Positions 1,872-11,628 of a stretch of 35,400 nucleotides of DNA are shown here, in pieces. The translations under genes and the position numbers were made by a program. Source of the DNA: Planctomycetota bacterium (lineage in GTDB: Bacteria; Planctomycetota; Phycisphaerae; Phycisphaerales; UBA1924); contig JAJRZG010000255.1 in assembly GCA_024275365.1 (NCBI GenBank), positions 1-35,400 of the forward strand. Direction: 5' to 3'. The notes under the pieces were generated by a model. The model ran no database searches and had not been told where the DNA came from. It was given only the letters and a program-made list of their open reading frames with translations. The stretch's first letter is position 1. The number at the start of each line of letters is the position of its first letter.

Positions 1872-2174
1872 CTACTCCGGCATCGGCAGCAACATCGGTA
1901 CCGCAACCTGGATAAACAGGTACGACCCCACGCCCAGCAGGATCATCGCCAGCACCACCTGGAAGGTCAGGATGAGCACCTTCAGCCAATACTTCTCGAA
2001 GGTTGCCACCCGCACCGCCCGGTAGGTCAGCGATATCCCAAACGCCAGCGGGATCAGCAGCAGGAACCACTGCCGATGCAGGTCGATTGGATCAAGGAAC
2101 GGCCTCCACCCGGTCGAGGCGAGGGGCAACTCGAGACCCATGAGGATGGAACCCGGACTGAAGGGGCCAATCAT
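1872..2174 (-). CDS. Small hydrophobic membrane protein, second gene of a two-gene operon
   Basis: 100 residues. The ATG at 2174 overlaps the TGA of the upstream gene (ATGA), which fixes the start. A longer reading upstream is only the antisense shadow of that gene. Two membrane helices are visible, at about residues 35-50 (QWFLLLIPLAFGISLTY) and 65-95 (LILTFQVVLAMILLGVGSYL), separated by a basic loop (YRAVRVATFEKYWLK). I do not recognise the family. Tight coupling to the upstream membrane protein suggests that they work together. The stop is TAG, nine bases from the convergent DUF2335-like gene. Confidence 0.65.
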   Translation of the reverse strand: MIGPFSPGSILMGLELPLASTGWRPFLDPIDLHRQWFLLLIPLAFGISLTYRAVRVATFEKYWLKVLILTFQVVLAMILLGVGSYLFIQVAVPMLLPMPE

Positions 2175-4566: not shown

Positions 4567-4932
4567 CTAATGGCACTTCCGCTCGGGTTGTCGTTTGACT
4601 TCTACCGGCTCGCCCCCGACGGTGAGCGTCGCGCGCGTGCTGCTGCGCGTGCGGTGCCTGGAAAAGAGCGACGAGGGGAGCACCCGCCGAAGCAACCACG
4701 CGCCCGCGCACAATGCCGCCAGCGTCACGAACCAGAACTGCGGGTCGGCAAAGGGGAGCTGTGTATTCGTCACGCTTTCTGCCGGGGCAGACTCCTGGGC
4801 CGCCATCGTGATAGGAGCGAGCACAGAGCACTGAGCAACAAGGCTGATGGCTAAGCAAAACCAAGAGACTCGCACACTATCCCTCTCGGGCGTTGCGCAT
4901 TGCCCCTGCGATTGTATCGCGATGCTGTTCAC
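4567..4932 (-). CDS. Small single-helix membrane protein coupled to feoB
   Basis: 121 residues from a GTG at 4932 that overlaps the feoB stop (GTGA), so it is the third gene of the feo operon. It has an N-terminal hydrophobic segment (WFCLAISLVAQCSVLA, possibly a signal peptide) and one clear membrane helix at about residues 66-81 (FWFVTLAALCAGAWLL). A basic cytoplasmic-type tail (RRVLPSSLFSRHRTR) ends in Lys-Cys-His. FeoB operons often end with a small Cys-bearing membrane protein (FeoB-associated type) or FeoC. This protein has that position and size class but I cannot assign it to either family. Confidence 0.6.
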   Translation of the reverse strand: MNSIAIQSQGQCATPERDSVRVSWFCLAISLVAQCSVLAPITMAAQESAPAESVTNTQLPFADPQFWFVTLAALCAGAWLLRRVLPSSLFSRHRTRSSTRATLTVGGEPVEVKRQPERKCH

Positions 4933-6986
4933 CCAACCACCTTCATAACCTGAAACACCGCTCCCGAGAACACATACGCGAGCCCACACATCCAGCCCAG
5001 TTGCAGGACAGCCCACTTCCAGTGCCCCGCCTCCTTGGCGGTCACCACGAGCGTCGGCAGGCACTGCATCGCAAGCACATAATAGATCAGCAGCGACCAA
5101 CTCGTCGCGGCTGTAAAGATGAGCGTTTTGCCATCATCACGCTTTGCGACCGCGAGAGACTTGAGAAACCCGTTTCCCTCATCGGTCCCTGCGGTCTGCA
5201 CCGCCATCGTCGAGACAAACACCTCTCGTGCTGCAAAGCTCGCAAGCACGCCGATGGTCAGCTGCCGGTCATACCCAAGCGGTGCAAAGATCGGCTCAAC
5301 CGTCGCCCCCAGCCGTCCCAGATAACTGTACCGCGAGGCGTGCTTGGCTTCGAGAATATCTGCCCGAGCGAGCAACTCCTCAGAGGTTGCTCCCTCCTCT
5401 CCCCCTTCTTCATTTGCCATGTGCCCATTTGCCCGCTCCCGCAGCTCCACCGCCTGCGCCGGAGGCTCAACGATCGGATACGCATTGAGCCACCACAACA
5501 CCATCGTGATCGCCAGGATCGCAGTCCCTGCATTCTGCAAAAAGAGCACGCCCCGGTTCCGGGCTGTGAGCAGCGCGTTCCACATGCTCGGCGCACGATA
5601 GCTCGGCAGCTCCATCACCATCGCCCTGCTCTTGCCCGGCAGGATCGTTCGCCTTGCAATCATCGCGCTCACCACGCCCGCAAACACGCCAAGCACATAG
5701 CACCCGCTAAACGCAAGCGCCTGCATCCCGGGGCTCTCCGGGAACAGCAACCCCGTCAGCAAAACATAGACCGGGATCCGCGCGGTGCAGCTCATAAAGG
5801 GCGCAGCCAGGATTGTTGCCAGCCGATCCCGCCTGTCTGGCACGCCACGCGCCGCGATGATCCCGGGGATCGCGCACGCATGGCTCGATAAAAAAGGCAC
5901 AAACGCGTGCCCGCTCAGCCCAAACGGGCGGAGCACCTTGTCGATCACGAACGCGGCCCGGGCGAGATACCCCGTGTCCTCGAGCAACGAGATCAACAAA
6001 AACAATATACATATCTGAGGCACAAAGATCAGCGTCGAGCCCACCCCCGCGAGCACGCCATCAATGAGAAGATCATGCACCGCGCCGGCTGGCAACACCC
6101 CACTCAGCCAGCCCCCGAGGTGCCCAAAGAGCATGTCGATCCAGTTCATCGGATAGGCTGCGAGCTTGAAGATGACCCAGAAAAGCCCGGTCATCACCGA
6201 GACAAATGTCAGCACGCCAAGCATCGGGTGCGTGAACGCCCGGTCGAGCCGATCCGTCAGCGTGTCGGGCAGCGGCGGGGCTGTGCCGGCTGCCATCTGG
6301 GCATAGAGCTCGTCGGCCCAGTCGGAGAGCCCCTCCTCGGTGCCCGGCGGGCTCTCGCGCGGGATACGGGGTGTGGCGAGAGTCTCGCAGAGTGTGTCCA
6401 CGCCCTCGCCGGTGCGCGCGCTGCACACCACCACCCCAACGCCCAACCGATCGGCCAGCACCTTCTCGTCGGCGTGGATGCCCCGCTTGCGCGCTTGATC
6501 GACGAGGTTGATCGCCACCACCATCGGCAGGCCCCGCCGGGTTGCCTCGCCAACGAGCATGAGGCTGCGCGAGAGATTCGTCGCGTCGGCGACGACCACG
6601 ATCGCGTCGGGCTCTGCGAGCGATTCACCCTTGAGTGCGAGTTCTCCGGCGAGCACGCTTCGGCAGATCTCGGCCTCGCTCTGTTCGAGTTCGAGCGAAT
6701 AGATGCCGGGGAGGTCGATGAGTTCGCTGCCTTCGGGCAGGCCTCGGGGCGCGCCGACGCGAGATTCCTGCGTGGTGCCGGGGAAGTTGCTCGTCTTGTG
6801 CCGCACACCACAGAGCCGGTTGAAGAGGCTCGTCTTCCCGGTGTTGGGGTTGCCAAGCAAGACAACCCTTCGGGGAGCATCGGGTGCTCCTGATCCGACG
6901 CTTTGCTCGAAGACTCGCTCAGCGTCGGCGTCCGAGCGAGCAGGTGATGTATCATCGGCGTGATTGGCGGCAGAAGGGCTCGTCAT
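4929..6986 (-). CDS. feoB: Ferrous iron transport protein B
   Basis: 685 residues. The N-terminal G domain has G1 GNPNTGKT at 45-52, the switch segment NFPGTTQE, G3 DLPGIYSL, G4 NLVD and the G5-like SARTGEG. The membrane part carries the FeoB signatures SSHACAIPGIIAAR and PFMSCTARIPVYVLL, with about ten hydrophobic segments. FeoB moves Fe(II) across the inner membrane. The protein is shorter than E. coli FeoB (773), and a Glu-rich loop (NEEGGEEGATSEELLARA) lies between membrane blocks. About 40 extra polar residues precede the G domain. It lies 45 bases after feoA and overlaps the small third gene by four bases. Confidence 0.95.
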   Translation of the reverse strand: MTSPSAANHADDTSPARSDADAERVFEQSVGSGAPDAPRRVVLLGNPNTGKTSLFNRLCGVRHKTSNFPGTTQESRVGAPRGLPEGSELIDLPGIYSLELEQSEAEICRSVLAGELALKGESLAEPDAIVVVADATNLSRSLMLVGEATRRGLPMVVAINLVDQARKRGIHADEKVLADRLGVGVVVCSARTGEGVDTLCETLATPRIPRESPPGTEEGLSDWADELYAQMAAGTAPPLPDTLTDRLDRAFTHPMLGVLTFVSVMTGLFWVIFKLAAYPMNWIDMLFGHLGGWLSGVLPAGAVHDLLIDGVLAGVGSTLIFVPQICILFLLISLLEDTGYLARAAFVIDKVLRPFGLSGHAFVPFLSSHACAIPGIIAARGVPDRRDRLATILAAPFMSCTARIPVYVLLTGLLFPESPGMQALAFSGCYVLGVFAGVVSAMIARRTILPGKSRAMVMELPSYRAPSMWNALLTARNRGVLFLQNAGTAILAITMVLWWLNAYPIVEPPAQAVELRERANGHMANEEGGEEGATSEELLARADILEAKHASRYSYLGRLGATVEPIFAPLGYDRQLTIGVLASFAAREVFVSTMAVQTAGTDEGNGFLKSLAVAKRDDGKTLIFTAATSWSLLIYYVLAMQCLPTLVVTAKEAGHWKWAVLQLGWMCGLAYVFSGAVFQVMKVVG

Positions 6987-7668: not shown

Positions 7669-8928
7669 TCAGTCCAGCATCGCCTCCATTGCCTGAAACG
7701 CCGGATGGTCCGGGTATTCCGAAACCACCATTCCGGCAATCACCGCGGCCTCGTCATGCTCTCCGAGTCTGGCGTAGGTCAGAGCGAGTGTGCAGAGCAC
7801 ATTACTTCGCACCGGTTCAGACATCCATCTCTCGGACTGCTGGTCCCCTCCAAGCAATGGCGCACTCGCGATTATGTCGGCCTCGGCCAGTTCCGCGGGG
7901 TGGGCCAAGACGCTCTCGAGCAAATCTACCGCCTCCTGAAGGCGCATTCGATTACTCGGAGGGAAGTTTGCAAGATGGAACGCGAGCATGTACGCAAGAT
8001 GGGCCTCAGCACTGCCCCAGTCTTCCGCTTGGGCAAGCCATGCTCGGGCGAATCCTTCACGGAAGCTGCCAAGTGGGGTTACATCACCTGCGCACAACAG
8101 GGCATGTTCTCCAGCCCCTGCTCGCCGAACACTCAGACCGTTGATCTGTATTAAAATACCGATCGCACCATCGAGGTCGCCGGCATCGACCCGATCCCGT
8201 GCGGTATCCTGCAGGCACTGATCGGCCCACCAAGACCAAGCGAGCGACTGCTGCACAGACTCCGGCAACCCTCTCACGAAACTGGCGGACTCCTCAAGAA
8301 GTGAGGCAGATGCCTCAAAAGCCCCGGCTGCCCGTTCACCATGTGATGCAACCCGGAACAAACGCTGCACGCTCAGCACGGAAACCGGGTCTACTTGAAA
8401 GAGAGGATCGTCCAGTGTGGAACGCACAACACCCAGTGCCTCTATTGCAGTCTGTAGCGTGGCATCCCGATCCTCGTCACTACCAGTTCGTGCCGCCGCT
8501 GTTTCGCGTAGGGCAACTCGCTGATCCCAGTACGCCAGACGATCCTGCAACCGAAGAGCATACATCGAGCCATCAACAGCGATAACCTCTGCCAGAACAA
8601 AGTCCTCGACACCGTTTGCCAGTGCAAGACATGTAAAACGAACCGATTCTGGTGCCTGATTCGGCGGTGTCCGCTCGTATTCTGTAAATAGGAGACCGAG
8701 CCAATCCCGATAGAACTGGATGCGGTCGTCACGAGTTGGATTGCTCCTTTCAAACCTCCTCGCAGCTTCGGAGTACGCACGAAGCAGGGAGTTCGCATCA
8801 TCATCTCCCGGATCAGAGGTTCTTGCACCCGCCAATACCACGCTGGTTATGGCCACAGCGACAAGGGACATGGCAAGGCGAGATCGGAATAACTTCCGAA
8901 ACAGCTGGGCGGGGTTCATGCTTCGCAT
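7669..8928 (-). CDS. Exported helical-repeat (TPR-like) protein
   Basis: 419 residues from the ATG at 8928, chosen because AAGGA lies about eight bases upstream. An ATG 24 bases earlier lacks one. The N-terminus is basic and then hydrophobic (LFRSRLAMSLVAVAITSVVLAGA), a signal peptide or anchor. The rest is helical and Ala/Leu/Glu-rich, with pairs of helices such as LQEAVDLLESVLAHPAELAEA and CTLALTYARLGEHDEAAVIA, which fit degenerate TPR repeats. No enzyme motif is visible. It begins 37 bases after the end of the extended reading frame of the upstream exported protein, so the two probably share a promoter. Confidence 0.7.
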   Translation of the reverse strand: MRSMNPAQLFRKLFRSRLAMSLVAVAITSVVLAGARTSDPGDDDANSLLRAYSEAARRFERSNPTRDDRIQFYRDWLGLLFTEYERTPPNQAPESVRFTCLALANGVEDFVLAEVIAVDGSMYALRLQDRLAYWDQRVALRETAAARTGSDEDRDATLQTAIEALGVVRSTLDDPLFQVDPVSVLSVQRLFRVASHGERAAGAFEASASLLEESASFVRGLPESVQQSLAWSWWADQCLQDTARDRVDAGDLDGAIGILIQINGLSVRRAGAGEHALLCAGDVTPLGSFREGFARAWLAQAEDWGSAEAHLAYMLAFHLANFPPSNRMRLQEAVDLLESVLAHPAELAEADIIASAPLLGGDQQSERWMSEPVRSNVLCTLALTYARLGEHDEAAVIAGMVVSEYPDHPAFQAMEAMLD

Positions 8929-8964
8929 GTATAGGTTCCTTTCCCGAAACATATGTCCACACGA

Positions 8965-9243
8965 TCACTCAAGAGTCTCACAATCGACCTCTGAGAGGAG
9001 CGAACAACTGCCGTTTGCCCAGAGATTGGCAACACCGGTGGATGTCCCGTCGCCACATGGCTGCTGCCACGGGTTCCCAAGAATCGAGCAGGTACACCAT
9101 GTATAAGTGTTGCCCCATGTGCCGCCGGTACTCCACGAGTGAGTCATTTCGACAGTCTTTCCCATGGTACCCAACAGAGTTCCCGAGATTGTCGCGATCT
9201 TGCAAGGAGGAGTCGAGTATGTGCAATCGCTCCGTATTTCAAC
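8965..9243 (-). pseudogene. Displaced C-terminal part of the exported Cys-rich protein (shifted frame)
   Basis: This minus frame opens just after a TGA at 9244-9246 and has no plausible start of its own. It encodes CTYSTPPCKIATISGTLLG, then WSTGGTWGNTYTWCTCS, and ends GSCSLLSEVDCETLE. The composition (Ser, Thr, Gly, Trp, Cys) matches that of the exported protein encoded in the other frame up to about 9243. There the first frame turns into an unlike, Arg/Leu-rich end. A one-base insertion or deletion near 9240-9260 explains both. Confidence 0.55.
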
Positions 9244-9701
9244 TCAACCGTGGTGCCAATCGTCACCCCAAGGGCAGCACCAAGCGACGCCTCAATCCCG
9301 GGCACGCCCACAGTGACTTCGGAACTGATGGTCGCCGTTGCTGACTGTGTTTGAGAAAGCTTGGTTCCCAAAGTGCAGGTTAACGGGCCGCTGGGCGGAT
9401 TGTCAGGGCAGCCTGGGTCTGCTTCCTCGTTACAGTTTTTGCACAATAGCGAGCCCGCGACAACAAGTGGCGTTCCAGGGAGTGTGACAACGGGTGTGCC
9501 ATCAACCCGACGGCACCATGTTTGGTTCGGTGTACAACAGAAATCGTTGTCGTGAGGGAGCATGCAAGTACACTCGGAGAGCGGTACGATCATCGCCCCA
9601 CCGCCCGGCCCACCCCCGACTTGTGCAGATACCCCCGCTGTCATGAAACTCATACCAACACAGGCTGCCATGAGATTCCGTCGAGTTCGAAATGTCCTCA
9701 T
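9144..9701 (-). CDS. Exported Cys-rich protein, probably frameshifted near its C-terminus
   Basis: 185 residues as read. The ATG at 9701 has AGGGG nine bases upstream. A signal peptide is clear (RRNLMAACVGMSFMTAGVSA, cleavage before QVGGG). The mature part has about ten Cys in pairs (ECTCMLPHDNDFCCTPNQTWC and LLCKNCNEEADPGC), then a Ser/Thr/Gly-rich strand-like region (SQTQSATATISSEVTVGVPG). From about residue 153 the sequence changes character (HTRLLLARSRQSRELCW), which I read as out-of-frame; the natural continuation lies in another frame at 8965-9243. No family is recognised. The alternating strand pattern would suit a secreted beta-rich protein. Confidence 0.6.
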   Translation of the reverse strand: MRTFRTRRNLMAACVGMSFMTAGVSAQVGGGPGGGAMIVPLSECTCMLPHDNDFCCTPNQTWCRRVDGTPVVTLPGTPLVVAGSLLCKNCNEEADPGCPDNPPSGPLTCTLGTKLSQTQSATATISSEVTVGVPGIEASLGAALGVTIGTTVELKYGAIAHTRLLLARSRQSRELCWVPWERLSK

Positions 9702-9751
9702 GTATCTTGCCCCTTCATCTGCTCGGATGAGCTATGACTCAGATATCGGAC

Positions 9752-9785
9752 AGACTACCCCCCACCCCCCCCCCCAACCTGTCAA
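9752..9785 (-). promoter_or_regulatory. Candidate promoter with poly-G spacer
   Basis: On the minus strand, a perfect TTGACA (9780-9785) is followed by a 22-base spacer made of GGTT, eleven G, T and six G. A TAGTCT (9752-9757) follows, about 50 bases before the start codon of the exported Cys-rich protein. The spacer is about five bases longer than the usual 17, and its length depends on homopolymer runs prone to slippage. The AT-rich stretch 9786-9850 lies just upstream. Confidence 0.45.
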
Positions 9786-9859
9786 GGCAAAAACCTCTTA
9801 TTTTAGTTGCATTTTAGAACCTAGTGTTTTTAAGGGGTTACAATTATACATGTCCAGTA

Positions 9860-9957
9860 TCAACCTCCCGCCGACCCCACCAGTTCACCGCTACCCTCGA
9901 ACCGCTTCATCGCTGCGAGCAACTGCTCGACCTGCTGGGGCGGCTTCATGTTCATGA
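9860..9957 (-). pseudogene. Relic of a second rho gene (3' end only)
   Basis: The minus strand encodes 31 codons then TGA: MNMKPPQQVEQLLAAMKRFE followed by GSGELVGSAGG. The intact rho (10345-11580) ends with the same MNMKPPQQVEQLLAAMKRFE, followed by SNAMLVGSAAGKQA. The DNA match runs for about 100 bases, including sequence just before the ATG. The different final residues, and the stop at the matching place, suggest a relic of a diverged rho paralogue rather than a fresh copy. Everything 5' of this point is missing. Confidence 0.75.
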
Positions 9958-10170
9958 GCTAACGGCGAGAACTCCAGCTCGGCCTACCTCTTCCACCCCG
10001 TGCCCTGCAGGGCCGACCTCACCGGCGACGGTGTGGCAGACATCCTGGATTTCCTCGGGTATTTCGCGTTGTGGACAGCCCACGACCCCAACGCCGATTG
10101 GAACAGCGATGGTAAAATTAACACCCTCGACTTCATCGCGTTTCTGAGAAACTGGGCAGCGGGGTGTTAG
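9958..10170 (+). pseudogene. Orphan dockerin-type C-terminus, 5' part lost
   Basis: The frame is open from 9958 to TAG at 10168-10170 and has no convincing start. It encodes two EF-hand-like dockerin repeats, ADLTGDGVADILDFLGYF and ADWNSDGKINTLDFIAFL, and ends NWAAGC. The D-x-T/N-x-D-G loops and the Gly-Cys end are typical of the C-termini of large exported planctomycete proteins, where this unit is thought to act as an anchoring or sorting tag. The sequence upstream belongs to the rho relic on the other strand, so the rest of the gene has been deleted. Confidence 0.75.
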
Positions 10171-10344: not shown

Positions 10345-11580
10345 TTAGGCTTGCTTGCCCGCTGCCGACCCCACCAGCATGGCATTGCTCTCAAACCGCT
10401 TCATCGCGGCTAAAAGCTGCTCGACCTGCTGGGGCGGCTTCATATTCATCAGCCGACGCCGGAGGGCGGTGATGGTCGCGAGGGTCTGGGGGTCGAGGAG
10501 TTTCTCATCTTTGCGGGTGCCGCTGGCAGCGAGGTTGATCGCGGGGAAGAGCCGCTTCTCGCTGATCTTGCGGTCGAGGATGAGTTCCATGTTGCCGGTG
10601 CCCTTAAACTCCTCGAAGATCACCTGATCGCCCTGGCTTCCGGTATCGACAAGACAGGTCGCCAGAATAGTCAGGCTGCCCGCTTCTTCGGTGTTGCGGG
10701 CAGCGCCAAAGAGCAGCTTGGGCACTTCGAGCGCCTTCGAGTCGATCCCGCCACTGAGAGTTCGGCCCGAACTGGCGTGCTGTCTGGATCGGTTAAACGC
10801 CCTGCCGACACGGGTCAGCGAGTCGAGCATGATGACCACATGCTTGCCGGCCTCGACCATGCGCTTTGCCCGCTCGACGGTCGTGGTGCTGACCGCCACA
10901 TGCCGCTCTGTGTCGTGGTCGTTGCTCGAAGCGATGACCTCGATCCGGTCGCCCCAGGGCGGGGATTTGCGAGACTGCTTGCCGGTGTCGGGGTCGCGAG
11001 TCATCGGCCCGAGGAACGACCGCTTGAAGTCGGTCACCTCTTCCGGCCGCTCGTCGACGAGCAGCATGAACACATACAACTCGGGGTGGTTGGTCAGTAG
11101 GCCTGTTGCGATATCTTTAAGGAGCGTAGTTTTGCCGGCCTTGGGAGGCGACACGATCAAGCCGCGTTGCCCGCGCCCAATCGGGCAGAACAGATCAATC
11201 AATCGGCATGAGTCCGGGCAGCCCGGGTGCTCAAGAGCCAGCATCGGCTCAGGATCGATCGAGGTCAGGTCGGCAAACTGGGGTCGTGTGCAGAACTCCT
11301 CGGGAGGCATCCCCTCGATCGAGACAAACGACTCGACCACCGGGCGCGGGGGCCTGGGAGCGTTGTTCTGCTTGTGCTTGCCCGCCCGACGCCGCCGGCG
11401 GGGCTTTTTCATGGTCACGGTAACAGTGACCTCGAGCCCGTTGCGCAGGTTGAACTGCTCGCCAAAGGCAAGGGGGACAAAGGGGTCGTCAGCGTGTTCG
11501 AGGATGTTCGCGTCCTGCAACTGGCGAACACGACCCTCGGCGCGCTGAGGCCACTCAAGGATACCGGTCAGCGTTTCCAT
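10345..11580 (-). CDS. rho: Transcription termination factor Rho, short N-terminus with basic insert
   Basis: 411 residues from the ATG at 11580. Rho is the hexameric RNA-DNA helicase that ends transcription. Walker A SPPKAGKTTLLKDIA lies at about 143-156. Other Rho signatures follow: MLLVDERPEEVTDF, SNDHDTERHVAV, VVIMLDSLTRVGRAFN, GNMELILDRKISEKRLFPAI. The usual N-terminal helix bundle is missing, and the cold-shock RNA-binding domain is poorly conserved (residues 1-55). A short basic insert (KKPRRRRRAGKHKQNN, 58-73) follows and may bind RNA. The upstream leader holds a CGGGGT-GAAA-ACCCCG hairpin (11629-11644). An ATG 45 bases further upstream is less likely to be the start. Confidence 0.93.
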   Translation of the reverse strand: METLTGILEWPQRAEGRVRQLQDANILEHADDPFVPLAFGEQFNLRNGLEVTVTVTMKKPRRRRRAGKHKQNNAPRPPRPVVESFVSIEGMPPEEFCTRPQFADLTSIDPEPMLALEHPGCPDSCRLIDLFCPIGRGQRGLIVSPPKAGKTTLLKDIATGLLTNHPELYVFMLLVDERPEEVTDFKRSFLGPMTRDPDTGKQSRKSPPWGDRIEVIASSNDHDTERHVAVSTTTVERAKRMVEAGKHVVIMLDSLTRVGRAFNRSRQHASSGRTLSGGIDSKALEVPKLLFGAARNTEEAGSLTILATCLVDTGSQGDQVIFEEFKGTGNMELILDRKISEKRLFPAINLAASGTRKDEKLLDPQTLATITALRRRLMNMKPPQQVEQLLAAMKRFESNAMLVGSAAGKQA

Positions 11581-11628
11581 ACGGTCTCTGCACTCTGCCC
11601 TGGATGCGGTATACAGCAACCACACGCA

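Follow-up and report, generated by a model that had tools for sequence, protein, structure and literature searches.

A poly-G spacer in a Phycisphaerales promoter before an exported-protein operon: a probable spacer-length phase-variable switch

Results and Discussion

The locus and its promoter

The window, a 35,400-nt stretch of DNA, belongs to a metagenome-assembled genome (G000; 3.22 Mb in 350 contigs). Between rho and feoB it carried a promoter with a long G tract and, behind it, an operon for exported proteins. The features are listed below, with their counterparts in a congener (G002) and in a member of another genus (G015).

4929 to 6986, minus strand: feoB, downstream synteny landmark
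7669 to 8952, minus strand: P0002, second gene of the operon, encoding a 427-aa exported protein weakly similar to TPR proteins; gene order as in G002
8970 to 9243, minus strand: second reading frame, continuing the exported protein past a duplicated GTTGA; window positions 9237 to 8980 align with the C-terminal region of the G015 homologue
9147 to 9701, minus strand: P0001, first gene, an exported Cys-rich protein of 185 aa as read; its homologue in G015 (L032) stands behind a poly-G promoter of its own
9752 to 9757, minus strand: -10 hexamer TAGTCT, identical in G002 and the most frequent -10 among the order's poly-G promoters
9758 to 9779, minus strand: spacer of 22 nt, GGTT-G11-T-G6 (GGTTGGGGGGGGGGGTGGGGGG), the length-variable element; 16 nt in G002 and 19 nt in G015, each with a G9 tract
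9775 to 9765, 9764 and 9763 to 9758, minus strand: the G11, T and G6 parts of the spacer, respectively
9780 to 9785, minus strand: -35 hexamer TTGACA, a perfect consensus, kept in G002 and G015
9786 to 9845, minus strand: AT-rich stretch 5' of the -35, a possible UP-like element
10345 to 11625, minus strand: rho, upstream synteny landmark

The anatomy of the promoter was read directly from the DNA. The original prediction had described a perfect TTGACA and a TAGTCT set 22 bases apart, with runs of eleven and six G between them, and this description was exact; its statement that the spacer was about five bases over the best length also stood, as the sigma-70 spacer optimum lies near 17. A standard sigma-70 scan with spacers restricted to 16-18 nt called no promoter at this site, because a spacer of 22 nt falls outside that range. 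TAGTCT agreed with TATAAT at only three of six positions, but these (T1, A2 and T6) are the best conserved of the hexamer, and it was the commonest -10 of the poly-G promoters of Phycisphaerales, occurring in 11 of 99. The 30 nt upstream of the -35 in the family promoters were AT-enriched, as they were in the window. About 50 bases separated the promoter from the ATG of P0001 (9701), which was preceded by AAGGGG.

The reading frame of P0001 was broken near 9233-9242 by the duplicated GTTGA, and that of P0002 was intact. A Pfam/NCBIfam search with P0001 gave no match, and an Rfam search of the window gave none either. Directly upstream of the promoter, at window positions 9880-9960, the 3' end of rho was present a second time. 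Approximately 385 bp, carrying a dockerin-like fragment on the opposite strand, lay between this copy and the intact rho. This duplication looks like a cassette insertion or exchange at the 3' end of rho.

Tracts of at least ten G numbered about 23 in the genome, and runs of at least ten A were absent. The majority of these G tracts did not adjoin a TTGACA, indicating that the genome is rich in G tracts in general and that the promoter context is what makes the window tract special. Some of the others fell within long ORFs, so long G tracts are tolerated outside promoters too. A second candidate promoter was seen in the same genome (L013, G000:C53, approximately 1904-1920, minus strand), where TTGAC-G17-ATACTC stood upstream of an AAGGAG...ATG gene.

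MutS was found in nearly all relatives checked, so there was no general loss of mismatch repair that would boost slippage, and switching would depend on tract length rather than on mutator status. The mutS gene of the window's own genome carried a C12 tract (L322 2504-2515, G000:C101) just past the conserved ATPase domain and, as assembled, its conserved C-terminal part lay in a different frame from the ATPase part. A run as long as this was absent from all eight related mutS genes compared. The tract may act as a switch on this repair gene, or it may be an assembly error.

Homologous promoters with different tracts

A counterpart of the window promoter was found in G002, in which the order rho, TTGACA-AGGTTGA-G9-TAGTCTG, exported gene, second exported gene and feoB was the same as in the window. 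Both hexamers were kept, as were parts of the sequence past the -10, while the spacer measured 16 nt (G9) against 22 in the window, and the first gene of G002 was intact. The cassette was absent from a further congener, G003. A homology search with P0001 in 40 relatives yielded a sole match, in G015, which was weak (E = 4.7e-5); there, TTGACA-19-TACTCT with a G9 tract lay directly before the P0001 homologue, followed by a second exported gene, and the same locus also surfaced independently in the promoter-pattern search. A DNA similarity search of the relatives with region 9144-9900 returned mostly short poly-G or chance matches, one of the matches being the G002 promoter.

Differences in tract length were also observed between other homologous promoters. 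In two other genera (L079 and L118), approximately 180 bp around the tract were identical except for G9 in one and G12 in the other, while the proteins had diverged. Tracts of G9 and G11 distinguished L080/L105 from L081, and a pair within one genome (G034) carried G11 and G12. The gene behind the L079 and L118 promoters encoded an FGE-sulfatase/dockerin protein, in which the promoter and signal peptide were nearly identical while the protein body had diverged to about 80%; at the level of sequence, this pattern suggests exchange of promoter regions between genera.

An alternative is that the window promoter is a relic, dead or in decay, which once switched, then expanded and broke, leaving the operon silent. 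The spacer of 22 with its interrupted tract, the duplicated GTTGA that shifts the frame of the first gene, and the normal 16-nt spacer and intact gene in G002 all fit such a history. However, interrupted tracts were found in other promoters (such as L163, G9-T-G8 at a spacing of 19), the second gene is intact, and the tract or the frame change may each be an assembly error. Decay at this locus was judged unlikely, while remaining a possibility.

Enrichment across Phycisphaerales

Genome-wide statistics were pattern counts with a reversed-pattern control. Across 400 genomes of the order, TTGACA-N2-16-G8-TANNNT matched 99 times and its reversed form once; in 150 genomes of the family, TTGACA-N0-10-G8+ matched 108 times and, when read backwards, 12 times. 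In 48 of 110 retrieved contexts, TANNNT followed the tract without a gap; the background rate downstream predicts about 0.4 such cases. Poly-C spacers were enriched too (34 versus 3 reversed), with a longer typical spacing (16-19). To judge from these counts, the arrangement in the window is not a product of chance. Consensus promoters of the form TTGACA-N10-24-TATAAT were scarce (15 in 41 genomes) and were thus unusable as a yardstick for spacing.

These counts also bear on whether the tract or its length could be an artefact of assembly or sequencing, or a chance run of G. Homopolymers are error-prone, and the source is a metagenome-assembled genome in 350 contigs. Nevertheless, the promoter and a G tract within it recur in the congener G002, which was assembled independently, and the hundred or so cases across the order outnumbered the reversed pattern 99:1, whereas artefacts would not target the interval between -35 and -10. 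An artefact or chance origin is very improbable and, as far as sequence comparison can decide, largely refuted by the evidence across genomes.

In about six Phycisphaerales promoters, TTGACA and TANNNT were present on both strands around one tract (among them G062:C1:1638707-1638742, G047:C13:52014-52050, G047:C34:164136-164170, G046:C270:5442-5476 and G112:C11:10961-10996), and a single G/C run with elements on both strands may serve two opposed promoters. Outside the order, TTGACA-G9+-TANNNT with a near-consensus -10 occurred among the matches listed (L178-L294) in Clostridia, Bacilli, Treponema, Alphaproteobacteria, Helicobacter, Moraxella, Lentisphaerae and others. As the same architecture was present among matches listed from many bacterial phyla, the phenomenon may be much wider.

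Constraint on total spacing

The distance between -35 and -10 in the 99 matches averaged 16.9, with 79% at 15-20 although 10-24 was allowed, a distribution that differed from uniform (P = 3e-11). Longer tracts were paired with shorter remaining spacers: the variance of total spacing was 7.2, compared with 10.1 when tract lengths were shuffled among promoters in a permutation test (P = 0.0036). This compensation of tract length for the remaining spacer indicated that total spacing is constrained, as would be expected if the G run acts through the distance from -35 to -10. That these promoters are of the sigma-70 type is inferred.

A spacing of 17 was less common than either 16 or 18 in each of three promoter sets (9 versus 17 and 14; 22 versus 29 and 48; 2 versus 6 and 7). 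The dip is suggestive only, with P values of 0.01-0.1 per set; it might mean that the sampled genomes are mostly off, or that spacers with G runs have another optimum.

Genes controlled by poly-G promoters

The first gene behind these promoters usually encoded an exported protein. A hydrophobic, signal-peptide-like N-terminus was present in 71 of 91 first downstream genes, compared with 85 of 220 (39%) background ORFs, which were other ORFs of the same loci (P = 2e-10); the call was heuristic and did not come from a trained signal-peptide predictor. Thirty first genes encoded short exported proteins, no longer than 140 aa, in which cysteine made up 11.8% of residues (2.0% in the background), and many of these genes were followed by a second protein of 200-300 aa, membrane-anchored or exported. 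P0001, itself exported and Cys-rich, fits this general description. The other main classes were a family of approximately 380 aa without a Pfam match (18 members), for which a profile search against the PDB gave nothing convincing, and pilin-like proteins (N_methyl).

Rather than a switch, the poly-G run could be a fixed structural or regulatory element, such as a stiff A-form-like spacer, a G-quadruplex or an operator of the CsoR/RcnR type. RcnR/CsoR proteins are known to use G-tract operators, and in the abutting form the run was nearly always on the non-template strand (99 G). However, otherwise identical promoters differed in tract length (G9 versus G12), tracts ranged from 8 to 18 G, the non-G portion of the spacer had no common motif, poly-C was enriched at the same position, and the constraint fell on total spacing, not on tract length. 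The targets were exported proteins of many families, not metal genes. A fixed element was therefore given little credence. A CsoR/RcnR-type operator in the strict sense, with a defined G length and conserved inverted AT-rich half-sites, was rejected as a candidate, as only the G run was conserved and the tract varied over 8-18.

A spacer-length phase-variable promoter

The comparative data fit a spacer-length phase-variable promoter of the kind known from porA, fetA and opc of Neisseria, in which replication slippage in the poly-G spacer would alter expression by changing how far apart -35 and -10 lie; we put the probability of this reading at roughly 0.78, with switching and expression both inferred. 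Four marks of such promoters were present here: a homopolymeric repeat between -35 and -10; a total spacing centred on the sigma-70 optimum, which held for the set, with the window allele itself at 22; a repeat length that varies while flanks are conserved, seen in between-species comparisons only (window/G002 and L079/L118); and an exported product, to judge from the hydrophobic N-termini, whose exposure at the surface would be a further inference. Two other marks, frequent and reversible length variation within one population and transcription that follows tract length, are inferred. The proposal in the original prediction, a promoter with a length-variable spacer before an exported-protein operon, was borne out by the G002 ortholog (16 versus 22), the hundred or so cases across the order, whose spacings centre near 17, and the G9/G12 pair with identical flanks.

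By this mechanism, slipped-strand mispairing during replication would add or remove G residues in a hypermutable spacer, a source of length change that is itself inferred. Gain or loss of G would shift the distance from -35 to -10 and with it the ability of RNA polymerase to grip the two elements together, so that the exported-protein operon would be on at a spacing near 17 and off or weak at 22. Reversible switching of this kind within a population is likewise an inference. On this reading the window promoter is one member of a large Phycisphaerales set standing before genes for exported proteins.

The window allele is probably off, a state inferred from its 22-nt spacer, its interrupted tract and the broken frame of its first gene. 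A point against a switch at the window itself is that a T interrupts the tract and five G residues would have to be lost before a spacing of 17 was reached. As the first gene is also frame-broken, the allele may be drifting into disuse, or may be fixed in the off state and no longer switch. Tract lengths taken from metagenome assemblies may be consensus errors, and the interrupted 22-nt spacer and the GTTGA frame break could each have arisen in assembly. A broader reading would have the poly-G and poly-C spacer promoters of Phycisphaerales, as a lineage-wide set, make small Cys-rich exported proteins, membrane-anchored partners and pseudopilins stochastically expressed, with most cells in the assembled genomes off; this remains speculative and was considered doubtful.

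Comparison with known systems

Phase variation by simple repeats has been described mostly from host-associated pathogens and commensals, and to our knowledge Phycisphaerales, which are environmental planctomycetes, are not known for it. Our literature search found no relevant report joining Phycisphaerales or planctomycetes with phase variation. The mechanism is already known; as far as the literature searched shows, what is new is its extent in Phycisphaerales. If the reading is correct, it would mean bet-hedging of exported proteins in environmental Planctomycetota, for which the likely selection is phages, predators or neighbours, not immune systems. TTGACA, G tract and TANNNT would then also provide a sequence handle for finding variable exported proteins of uncultured Phycisphaerales.

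Homopolymeric tracts within coding genes were proposed by Orsi et al. (2010) as a general regulatory mechanism in prokaryotes (PMC2831843). Slippage in a homopolymer as a mechanism of regulatory mutation is common to those tracts and to the promoter studied here, but theirs lie in coding sequence and act by frameshift; that survey did not mention Planctomycetota or a promoter-spacer set. In the hif fimbrial genes of Haemophilus influenzae, two divergent genes are reported to be switched by a variable combined promoter (cited in PMC2791445). This system resembles the two-stranded promoters, about six in Phycisphaerales, in having one tract common to the promoter elements, and differs in that the tract here is a mononucleotide G tract and the window promoter is one-directional.

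The nearest likeness is to Neisseria porA, fetA (frpB) and opc, in which a homopolymer lies between -35 and -10 and its length alters the spacing (PMC5320596; PMC2791445). As in those genes, the Phycisphaerales promoters have a poly-G or poly-C tract in the spacer and stand before surface or exported proteins, and the interrupted tract of the window resembles that of gonococcal porA, (T)9C(G)6T (PMC5320596; PMC2791445). In contrast to Neisseria, which are host-restricted pathogens, the carriers here are Phycisphaerales of the Planctomycetota, and the targets are unrelated: small Cys-rich exported proteins, the family of approximately 380 aa and pseudopilins, for which the effect of tract length on expression is inferred.
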